The notes beneath the pieces are model-generated. The model had not been told where the DNA came from, did not search any database, and saw nothing but the letters and a program-made list of their open reading frames with translations. Below, piece by piece: positions 30,460 to 36,473 of a stretch of DNA of 64,000 bases. The DNA comes from Hwanghaeella grinnelliae (GTDB lineage Bacteria; Pseudomonadota; Alphaproteobacteria; UBA8366; Aestuariispiraceae): NCBI RefSeq assembly GCF_004005845.1, contig NZ_SADE01000001.1, positions 1,798,001 to 1,862,000 of the forward strand, read 5' to 3'. A program made the translations under genes and the position numbers. The first letter of the stretch is position 1, and each line of letters opens with the position of its first letter.

Positions 30460-30939
30460 CTAGAAGGAAATCTCGAAATAGTCGTCCTGCAGCGCTTCTT
30501 GCAGAAGGTCTTCCGATGCCTGCATTTGCGGCCGGTTCTGCGCCAGTGCGGCGAACAGCGCGACAGCAGCGCGCTGGTTCAACAGCGAGGGGATGATGGT
30601 TTTGCGGCCGTAGAGGCGCATGCAGAGTTCTTCTGAAAACGCTTTGCCGCTGACAAAAGCCATTGGATCTTCGGGGACGAGCCGGTCCTCAATCTCTCCC
30701 ACGCCATAGAATGTCACGTCACGATGGCGGCGGTCCTGATTGATTTTCGAGAAGATAGTGGAGACGGCTTCCCGCGACCCCTCGAGGTAATGCATGAAAT
30801 GCGTCGAGGTCAGCCCGAGCAGCCCGGTGACCTGCAAACGTTCGTTGTTTCGGCGCGAAGCGGCCAGAATCGGTTCGAGGTCCGTGAAGCGGAAAGTGTC
30901 TGCTGGCTTGCTGTAGTAAGCTAACCGTATTTCTTTCAT
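30460..30939 (-). CDS. BLUF-fold protein, flavin-switch Gln replaced by His
   Basis: A 159-residue protein whose first about 95 residues match the BLUF blue-light domain: RLAYYSKPADTFRFTDLEPI, RRNNERLQVTGLLGL, HFMHYLEGSREAVSTIFSKI, RRHRDVTFYGVGEIEDR. Tyr8 and Asn32 are present, but the Gln of the FLQVLEG motif, needed for the normal photocycle, is His50, and the Trp/Met of strand 5 is absent. The C-terminal 60 residues are helical and end DDYFEISF, shared with the upstream paralogue. No output domain is attached. It follows that paralogue on the same strand after 81 bases. Confidence 0.82.
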   Translation of the reverse strand: MKEIRLAYYSKPADTFRFTDLEPILAASRRNNERLQVTGLLGLTSTHFMHYLEGSREAVSTIFSKINQDRRHRDVTFYGVGEIEDRLVPEDPMAFVSGKAFSEELCMRLYGRKTIIPSLLNQRAAVALFAALAQNRPQMQASEDLLQEALQDDYFEISF

Positions 30940-31020
30940 TCAATTACCTTCGCCCATTCCGCCCCGGAAACTCTTGGGGAAGCTGTTCCGAAGGCTCAGG
31001 TCGCGTTTTCCAGCGGGTGC

Positions 31021-31500
31021 CTAGACCGCAATTTCGAAATAGTCTTCGTTCGCGCAATCGTCGATCAGCTGCTGCGACTTTGCCAGAATATCACATTTCC
31101 GGCTGGCTTTCAGCAGCAGGCGCTTCGCATTCTCGAAGCTCAAAAGCGACGGCAGAATACGAGGCATCTTGATCGCCTCGCGGCAGAAATCGACGCTGAA
31201 AGCGTCGGCGGAGATAAAATCGACAGGGCCGGCGTCGAACATGCGCTCGTTGATTTCTTCCATGCCAAACAGCACGACGTTGCGGAAATTGGGGTCGCAC
31301 ATAATGTTCGAAAAAGACTGAGAGACCGCCTCGCGCGGCCCTTCCATGACATACATGAAATGGGTCTGAGTCATCGCCATAACAGCGGAAATTCCAAAAT
31401 TGCCGTTATATTCCCGGTTCTTATCGAGAATCCCTGCCAAGTTCGTCAGACGGAATGCGTCGGACGGCTGGCAATAAAGGGCAAGTCTCGTTTGCTTCAT
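31021..31500 (-). CDS. BLUF-fold protein, key Tyr and Gln both replaced
   Basis: A 159-residue paralogue of the neighbouring protein, aligning end to end without gaps. Asn32 is kept, but the switch Tyr position is Leu8 (RLALYCQ, with a Tyr one residue later), the switch Gln is Tyr50 (FMYVMEG), and the ITG turn reads ISA. Classical BLUF photochemistry is therefore unlikely; it may bind flavin differently, or only pair with its sibling. The C-terminus ends NEDYFEIAV. A palindrome overlaps the expected ribosome-site region. It is probably the first gene of the pair. Confidence 0.78.
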   Translation of the reverse strand: MKQTRLALYCQPSDAFRLTNLAGILDKNREYNGNFGISAVMAMTQTHFMYVMEGPREAVSQSFSNIMCDPNFRNVVLFGMEEINERMFDAGPVDFISADAFSVDFCREAIKMPRILPSLLSFENAKRLLLKASRKCDILAKSQQLIDDCANEDYFEIAV

Positions 31501-31529: not shown

Positions 31530-31696
31530 TTTGGACTTTGCCGAGAATACAGGCCAAAGATTTACAAAAGGTTACTCCGGTAGGCCTCCGTCATCCTAAA
31601 GGCTTGGGCACGGAATAACGCGTTTCTTCCCTGGTCATTTGCAGTGATGACAGGTTGCCGAAATCGTCTGAAGGCATGGGGATGCGACAAAGCAAA

Positions 31697-31723
31697 AGCC
31701 CCGCCGGTTTGGCCGGCGGGGCT
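31697..31723 (-). terminator. Rho-independent terminator of glnA
   Basis: An 11-bp stem, AGCCCCGCCGG (31697-31707) with CCGGCGGGGCT (31713-31723), 5-base loop. On the minus strand it is followed by TTTT. It lies 51 bases past the glnA stop. Confidence 0.9.
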
Positions 31724-31773
31724 CTCGGAAACGCATCCTTCACCCGGCTTCTGAACCGGGATCGGGAAGGGAA

Positions 31774-35234: not shown

Positions 35235-36473
35235 CTAGTCGGTTGCGCCGACTTCTTCAAGTTCGAAGGTGTTCACACGGTTCCGTCCGGTCTGTTTTGC
35301 GCGGTACAAGGCCTGATCGGCCCGTGACAGTGCCTGGGACGCATTCTGATCGCCAGGCATGACGAAGCCGATCCCGACGCTGACCGTAACCGTGATATTT
35401 TGTCCGCCGAATTCCGTGATCGAATGTTCAACGGCCGAACGCAGTTTCTCGGCAACGATAGAGGCGCCGACCGTGCCGGTGTCGGGTAAGACGATAGCGA
35501 ACTCCTCGCCACCGGTCCGTCCGAAGATATCGACGGTTCGTATGGACTCCGTCGCTGTCGTTACAATGTTCTTGATAACTTCGTCGCCGGCGGCGTGACC
35601 GTAGGTATCGTTGACCTTCTTGAAACGGTCGATGTCAAACATGGCGATGGTTAGTGGTGATTTGTAACGCCGCGCGCGGGCAAATTCGTTTTCCGCCGAT
35701 TCCATCAGGGCACGCCGGTTGAAACAACCGGTCAGTGGATCCGTCCTTGCCATATTGTAGAGTTCTTCCCGGTGACGCACGAGAGTCCGGAAAAGTGGCC
35801 GGAAGACCAGAACGCCCTCTAACGCGACCACGGCTAGGAACGAGGCCAAAAGCCAGGAGATACGCTCCCGAAGCTTGCGGACGCGATCGCGACTCGCGTC
35901 TTCGTAGGCGGTCGCCACTTCGGTCAGCGAGTCCATGAGCTCGTCCTGCGCCGCCGCCAACAGGCGGATCAGGCCCTGGTTCTTTTCGTCGAGGAAGTTT
36001 TGCGGCAGTTCCAGAAAGTCTTCCGCCAGTGTCATGAAACGGCGGACGCGGTAGTCCAATTGCTCTGCTTCACCGAAGAACATTTCGTCGATGTCGTCGG
36101 AAAAGCCGCCTCCCGGCAGTCCCAATTGCGCGTCACCCATCAGAAGGGCCTCATGAGAGCTGCGCATCAGACCGATGGAAGACTGAATCAAGGGTTCCAG
36201 ATATCGCCGTTGCTGCGGATTTGCCATGGCGTATTGAAAAGCAAGCCCGCTGATTCGCTGGGACAGGGTCGTTTGCCGAGTCGCGATCCGTACCAGGGTC
36301 GCGCTGCGGGCTTCCTCGGTGATGATCCGGTCAGAAAGAAAAAAAGTTCCGACACCAAAGGCGGCAATAAGGGCCAGTGCCGCAGAATAGATGGCGACAT
36401 AATAGCCCAGGCCGTGGCCACGGCCGCCCCCGTCTATTTCCTTGCCGCCTATTTTCTTATCCCCCACCGTCAA
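35235..36473 (-). CDS. Membrane diguanylate cyclase with PilJ-like sensor
   Basis: Makes cyclic di-GMP. Two membrane spans (about 24-46 and 206-225) enclose a periplasmic region of the PilJ/type IV pili sensor type (RIATRQTTLSQRISGLAFQY, QQRRYLEPLIQSSIGLMRSS). A short linker leads to a complete GGDEF domain from about 243: TDPLTGCFNRRAL, FDIDRFKKVNDTYGH, catalytic GGEEF at 321-325, and the inhibitory I-site RTVD at 312-315 with the standard five-residue spacing. It is therefore active and product-inhibited by inference. The start is a TTG (36473) or the GTG two codons on; no ATG fits. Confidence 0.9.
   Translation of the reverse strand: MTVGDKKIGGKEIDGGGRGHGLGYYVAIYSAALALIAAFGVGTFFLSDRIITEEARSATLVRIATRQTTLSQRISGLAFQYAMANPQQRRYLEPLIQSSIGLMRSSHEALLMGDAQLGLPGGGFSDDIDEMFFGEAEQLDYRVRRFMTLAEDFLELPQNFLDEKNQGLIRLLAAAQDELMDSLTEVATAYEDASRDRVRKLRERISWLLASFLAVVALEGVLVFRPLFRTLVRHREELYNMARTDPLTGCFNRRALMESAENEFARARRYKSPLTIAMFDIDRFKKVNDTYGHAAGDEVIKNIVTTATESIRTVDIFGRTGGEEFAIVLPDTGTVGASIVAEKLRSAVEHSITEFGGQNITVTVSVGIGFVMPGDQNASQALSRADQALYRAKQTGRNRVNTFELEEVGATD

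Follow-up and report, generated by a model that had tools for sequence, protein, structure and literature searches.

Short BLUF proteins of the PixD type form light-controlled oligomers with a partner such as PixE. A functional BLUF photoreceptor is recognized by a switch Tyr on strand 1, a switch Gln on strand 3, the D-x-R-H motif together with the flavin Asn, bound FAD and a light shift of about 10 nm. The His of this Asp-X-Arg-His motif lies near the flavin, according to the accessible part of PMC9020721.

Several engineered switch mutants of BLUF proteins have been described. In the sections of PMC6695109 that were available, Slr1694 Q50A and AppA Q63E are cited as locked in a pseudo-lit state and BlsA Q51A gives lit-like motility in the dark, while the BlsA mutants Y7A, Q51A, Y7A/Q51A and W92A were insoluble on overexpression and the double mutant Y7A/Q51A behaved unlike Q51A. 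The PDB title of entry 3mzi describes PixD Y8F as a pseudo-signalling state. Excerpts of PMC4780082 call AppA Gln63Leu photoinactive, and those of PMC4682037 cite a Tyr-less BLUF that undergoes photoreduction and controls a cyclase, the polarity being inverted. The latter source also reports that natural Cys-less LOV proteins respond to chemical reduction or photoreduction. According to passages of PMC9098866, a response, though often a weakened one, persisted in several LOV receptors lacking the active-site Gln, and natural Gln-less LOVs exist; a Gln-to-His variant had no photocycle in YF1 and was constitutively lit-like in NmPAL. In the part of the literature covered, no natural BLUF lacking the Gln or the whole switch was found. 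The bacterial BLUF census in PMC4844311 used, in the text available, a search pattern demanding the Tyr-Gln pair, and proteins such as those described here could therefore not appear in it.

The tandem BLUF pair and its switch residues

The window, which is the whole stretch of 64,000 nucleotides from Hwanghaeella grinnelliae that was analysed, carries two neighbouring BLUF genes, A and B (Table 1). A sequence-only reading of the window had proposed tandem BLUF-fold paralogues of 159 residues, and this proposal was borne out by the open reading frames, by matches to the Pfam BLUF family PF04940 above its curated cut-off of 25 (A, 6e-22, 78 bits; B, 4.5e-14, 52.8 bits) and by confident AlphaFold models. 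Both proteins matched the sequences of solved BLUF structures in the PDB, and the best matches of both models were BLUF crystal structures. PixD-type structures were matched across the core and the C-terminal helical cap, as in Tll0078 (A, Z 21.4, rmsd 1.6; B, Z 20.9, rmsd 1.8; 138 residues aligned in each). Neither protein holds a second Pfam family above its cut-off or an effector domain, and both have the stand-alone core followed by C-terminal helices that characterizes PixD-type short BLUFs. A search of the source genome gave no BLUF match besides A and B. A weak match of A to TEX47 (E 0.002) fell below the cut-off of the Pfam search; TEX47 is called a potential homologue of the BLUF-domain protein MOT7 in the available part of PMC10266980.

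Table 1. Features of the BLUF locus, in window positions
Feature	Position	Strand	Remarks
BLUF paralogue A	30460..30939	(-)	159 aa; Pfam match; model pLDDT 93.6
BLUF paralogue B, gene upstream of A	31021..31500	(-)	159 aa; Pfam match; model pLDDT 92.8
A codon 50	30790..30792	(-)	CAT (His); CAG (Gln) in both orthologues
B codon 50	31351..31353	(-)	TAT (Tyr); one base different from CAT of A
B codon 8	31477..31479	(-)	CTT (Leu) at the switch Tyr position
A tail motif DDYFEI, residues 152-157	30469..30486	(-)	in the low-confidence C-terminal stretch of the model
B tail motif EDYFEI, residues 152-157	31030..31047	(-)	
B-A gap, 81 nt	30940..31020	(-)	GAAGG ahead of the ATG of A
Strong hairpin and T-rich sequence after glnA	31693..31727	(-)	-30.9 kcal/mol, z -5.46

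A and B share the residue numbering of Slr1694, save that a tag shifts the numbers in one entry. A keeps Tyr8, Asn32, Asp69-x-Arg71-His72 and Met93 and carries the substitutions Q50H, F88V and W91D. B carries Y8L, S10C, Q50Y, R71N, H72F, W91G and M93V, and keeps N32, E53-G54, D69, the fold and the tail. The replacement of the switch Gln by His50 in A and Tyr50 in B, as claimed from the letters alone, is evident from both alignment and codons; Leu8 at the switch Tyr of B and ISA for ITG (residues 37-39) were likewise read there, and the residue alignment confirmed that Asn32 is retained in both. A strand bearing Trp and Met had been described as missing from both proteins. Trp91 is indeed gone in both, but Met93 is still present in A; in this region neither model has a strand beyond a short one at 94-96. 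Concealment of a Gln by misalignment was ruled out, since the alignment of A, B and their two orthologues (see below) has zero gaps over 159 columns and both models align with PixD-type structures.

The two copies are not equal. Among 17 positions that are conserved in 85% or more of 114 further BLUFs, 14 are kept in A and 7 in B, the fewest of 118 complete rows, so that far more has been lost from B than from A. With regard to the features of a functional photoreceptor, A has the switch Tyr and the complete D-x-R-H motif and flavin Asn, whereas B has neither switch residue and only the Asn and Asp of the pocket set. We therefore place A and B in the BLUF family by sequence and fold, but not among the functional BLUF photoreceptors, since the check for the switch Gln found it in neither protein. 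Relative to the PixD-type proteins Slr1694 and Tll0078, the predicted fold of core and cap, N32 in both copies and Tyr8 in A are the same; the differences are the lack of Gln50 and Trp91 in both copies, the lack of Tyr8 in B, the FEI tail and the tandem arrangement.

The last nine residues are of low confidence in the models (block means 63 and 64). Asp153, Phe155, Glu156 and Ile157 are nevertheless invariant in A, B and the two orthologues, and the pattern [DE][DE]xFE[ILV] was found in 5 of 126 BLUF frames, namely these four and L017. The unusual C-terminus noted in the sequence-only reading is accordingly shared by A and B, but it also occurs in both orthologues, and with a similar motif in L017; a tail unique to the pair was ruled out on these grounds. 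The BLUF at L017:1429-1911 (G038), from the same order, has canonical switch residues and the motif DDFFEV near its end. A conserved, probably flexible FEI tail points to a putative binding partner, although no partner protein of A or B was found in this analysis.

Origin of the pair and occurrence of switch-less BLUFs

A search of neighbouring genomes for the same pair had been suggested. A single switch-bearing BLUF, with Tyr8 and Gln50, occupies the locus in a genome of the same genus (G001; Hwanghaeella sp. MAG, contig JANQIT010000039.1) and in one of the same family (G005; alphaproteobacterial MAG, contig JASJDC010000001.1). These orthologues were matched when the contigs were searched with alignment A2, while a search with A alone gave no relative. 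Both follow glnB-glnA on the same side as in the window and face a convergent peptidase (74% identical in G001 and 66% in G005 to the M20-family peptidase of the window, as assigned by Pfam), and both have the length and tail of A and B. In G005 Trp91 and Met93 are also retained and an ORF of 166 aa lies on the same strand between glnA and the BLUF gene; the G001 protein has Cys91 and Leu93. The comparison covers one genome of the species and three genomes with the locus.

In a tree of 55 rows, A, B and the two orthologues form a clade (100/99), within which G001 groups with A and B (99/94) and A with B (95/76). This tree and both model alignments comprised the four locus proteins and 51 of the 80 complete other rows, L133 and L145 being absent. 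A quick tree of 85 rows, comprising all 80 complete other rows, L178 and the four locus proteins, gave SH-aLRT values of 99 for the four-protein clade and 96 for G001 with A and B. Since both relatives hold a BLUF with Tyr8 and Gln50 at this very locus, the comparison shows, as judged from sequence, place and tree, that the ancestor had the switch, which was lost afterwards, and that A and B descend from a BLUF type that relatives still have there. The codon path, from CAG in the orthologues through CAT in A to TAT in B, suggests that Gln first became His, that duplication followed and that His was then changed to Tyr in B.

The locus evolves fast even where the Gln is kept, with 42% identity between the Gln-bearing orthologues vs 88-91% for glnA. 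A is 50% identical to the G001 orthologue and 42% to that of G005. As A and the Gln-bearing G001 protein share the same number of residues with the G005 protein (67 of 159; B, 58), loss of the Gln has not visibly accelerated A. The branch of B is the longest of the clade (1.06; A, 0.39). Differences at third codon positions exceed those at first and second positions in all six pairs (A-B: 81, 58, 100), the weakest contrast being that of B vs G005 (73, 74, 98). With dS saturated throughout A, B and their orthologues (1.4 or more), these contrasts are to be taken as rough signs of constraint. The long branch of B and its weak contrast against G005 make relaxed selection in B possible.

How rare such substitutions are was assessed in 124 unique BLUF stretches, 123 of them with a letter at position 50. 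These came from family, order and class searches, lower-scoring class matches included, and from 29 phylum loci (L148-L176), which were the best-scoring new ones in a phylum-wide search that found BLUF in 119 of 398 genomes and whose listed matches are the higher-scoring ones. The count omits three hits of the class search that fell under the Pfam cut-off (G125, G182, G315), and a few of its stretches are contig ends or fragments of a single interrupted frame (L031 twice, L054). Gln occupies position 50 in 120 of the 123, in a survey that outside the class is weighted to higher-scoring BLUFs; the exceptions are A (His), B (Tyr) and L133 (Glu). Tyr occupies position 8 in 117 of 120, with the exceptions B (Leu), L133 (Phe) and L145 (Phe). 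In L145:551-1036 (G323) the Phe at the switch Tyr is accompanied by Asp at the Asn32 position, and Gln50 is kept. Among the matches listed in the phylum search, nine fell in genome G501 and eight in G695.

L133:130-993 (G093) is, by Pfam, a fusion of a response-regulator receiver to a BLUF domain in which Phe stands in for the switch Tyr and Glu for the switch Gln. Like the pair it is a natural BLUF without switch residues, although A itself keeps Tyr8; it differs in the fused receiver and in lying outside the clade of the pair and its orthologues. It keeps 12 of the 17 conserved positions, W91 and M93 included. Its orthologue L178 (G823) is 77% identical and has both the Phe and the Glu, and for the BLUF part of the two, dN is 0.158 and dS 0.768 (dN/dS about 0.2). 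This level of divergence shows purifying selection on the receiver-BLUF in two species, as estimated from their codons, and that BLUFs without the switch can persist. Within that order, 2 of 82 genomes gave a match over the full length; two more matches covered only the first half of the query, on the receiver side. The four-protein clade of the 85-row tree (99) excludes the receiver-BLUFs, and since G001 and G005 keep the Gln within that clade, the Gln losses of the pair and of the receiver-BLUFs look separate. A larger clade uniting the four locus proteins with the two receiver-BLUFs was not rejected (p-AU 0.962), so that the receiver-BLUFs may be near kin; the tree constrained to this six-protein clade had a better score than the one from the short free search.

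Possible functions of A and B

The pair resembles the laboratory mutants Slr1694 Q50A and Y8F, AppA Q63E and BlsA Q51A in that a switch Gln or Tyr is lost from an otherwise intact BLUF; those proteins were engineered, and in the accessible parts of the sources no His at position 50 was encountered among them. Natural Cys-less and Gln-less LOV proteins (PMC4682037, PMC9098866, as far as available) offer another parallel, being flavin photoreceptor folds that naturally lack a key photochemical residue; their fold and chemistry are unrelated to BLUF, and some respond to light or reduction.

We favour, at about even confidence, the explanation that A is an FAD-binding BLUF that is either locked or uncoupled from the normal photocycle and that B is a flavin-poor partner acting through its fold and tail. 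A most likely still binds FAD, given that Tyr8 and the conserved D-x-R-H motif are kept, and would have no normal Tyr-Gln-flavin hydrogen-bond switch; it could hold one fixed signalling state or respond to the redox state of its flavin. B, in which fold and tail are retained but most of the conserved pocket residues are gone, most likely binds little or no flavin and would be a subunit with a structural or partnering role, possibly alongside A, via the helical cap and the FEI tail. Loss of the switch Gln and Trp may cost A flavin binding or stability as well, by analogy with the BlsA mutants, which were insoluble and of which the double mutant behaved unlike Q51A (PMC6695109, available sections).

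The sequence-only reading had stated that loss of Tyr and Gln abolishes normal photochemistry and that the pair may have been reused as light-independent modules. Switch residues are indeed lost, but A retains Tyr8, and removal of the Tyr can allow photoreduction and inverted signalling in the case cited in PMC4682037. Reuse in protein binding is plausible. Light independence of A and B is no more than plausible, considering the Tyr8 of A and the pseudo-lit Slr1694 Q50A and AppA Q63E; as the cited mutants are pseudo-lit, inverted or lit-like, a protein that has lost the switch may still signal.

One alternative is that A still senses light by altered chemistry, whereby Tyr8 would donate an electron to excited FAD, with His50 or water relaying protons, or a flavin semiquinone formed by photoreduction would signal, with B tuning or pairing with A. 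The retention of Tyr8, N32 and D-x-R-H in A agrees with this, as do the often weakened responses of Gln-less LOV receptors, the existence of natural ones (PMC9098866) and the Tyr-less BLUF of PMC4682037. The Gln-to-His change in LOV, however, left YF1 without a photocycle and NmPAL constitutively lit-like, and AppA Gln63Leu is called photoinactive (PMC4780082), and we consider such a sensor unlikely. That A would instead be a sensor of flavin redox state or oxygen, reading the redox state of the cell through FAD with B as output partner, is very doubtful: the conserved motif of A and the responses of Cys-less LOV proteins to reduction (PMC4682037) are in line with it, while the absence of any effector domain by Pfam in both proteins argues against it.

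The duplicates could also be decaying, one or both drifting toward pseudogenes after loss of the switch. B, which sits on the longest branch in the clade and keeps fewest of the conserved positions, fits this account, as does the fast evolution of the locus, and a single genome of the species was examined. Yet both frames are intact, of equal length and aligned without gaps, third-position differences are the largest in every pair, A has evolved no faster than its orthologue, and B has kept its fold, E53-G54, D69 and tail. Decay of this kind is improbable in our judgement.

Returning to a flavin-holding A in a fixed state beside a flavin-less B, one may tentatively speculate, at a chance clearly below even, that light-sensing BLUFs have repeatedly given rise to selected regulators without a switch, here as such a pair and elsewhere as a receiver-driven BLUF with lit-locking kinds of change. 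The locus provides a natural before-and-after series, from the complete switch (G005) through loss of the Trp/Met pair (G001) and of the Gln (A) to an eroded pocket (B). What a BLUF does without its switch is therefore directly testable, and it can be asked outside the laboratory whether loss of the Gln locks, inverts or removes signalling.

Transcriptional context of the locus

Hairpins with T-rich sequence follow glnA in all three genomes with the BLUF locus, the least stable by this measure being that of G005 (z -2.55, with 4 of 200 shuffles folding as well). The hairpin of the window (Table 1), which is absent from the list of the terminator scan, probably separates the BLUF pair from glnBA, given its counterparts in the other two genomes. 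Membership of the pair in a gln operon was thought unlikely, on account of these hairpins and of the few loci in which BLUF adjoins glnA: of the 14 glnA loci of the family, one of which is truncated within glnA, 3 have a BLUF frame next to the gene. Shuffled versions of the gap between B and A fold as well as the gap itself, which makes co-transcription of the two genes plausible; the promoter scan found no sigma-70-like promoter. A few kb from the pair and on the same strand, a protein encoded at 35235-36473 of the window meets the Pfam cut-off for GGDEF and has a PilJ-like N-terminal match just under the cut-off.
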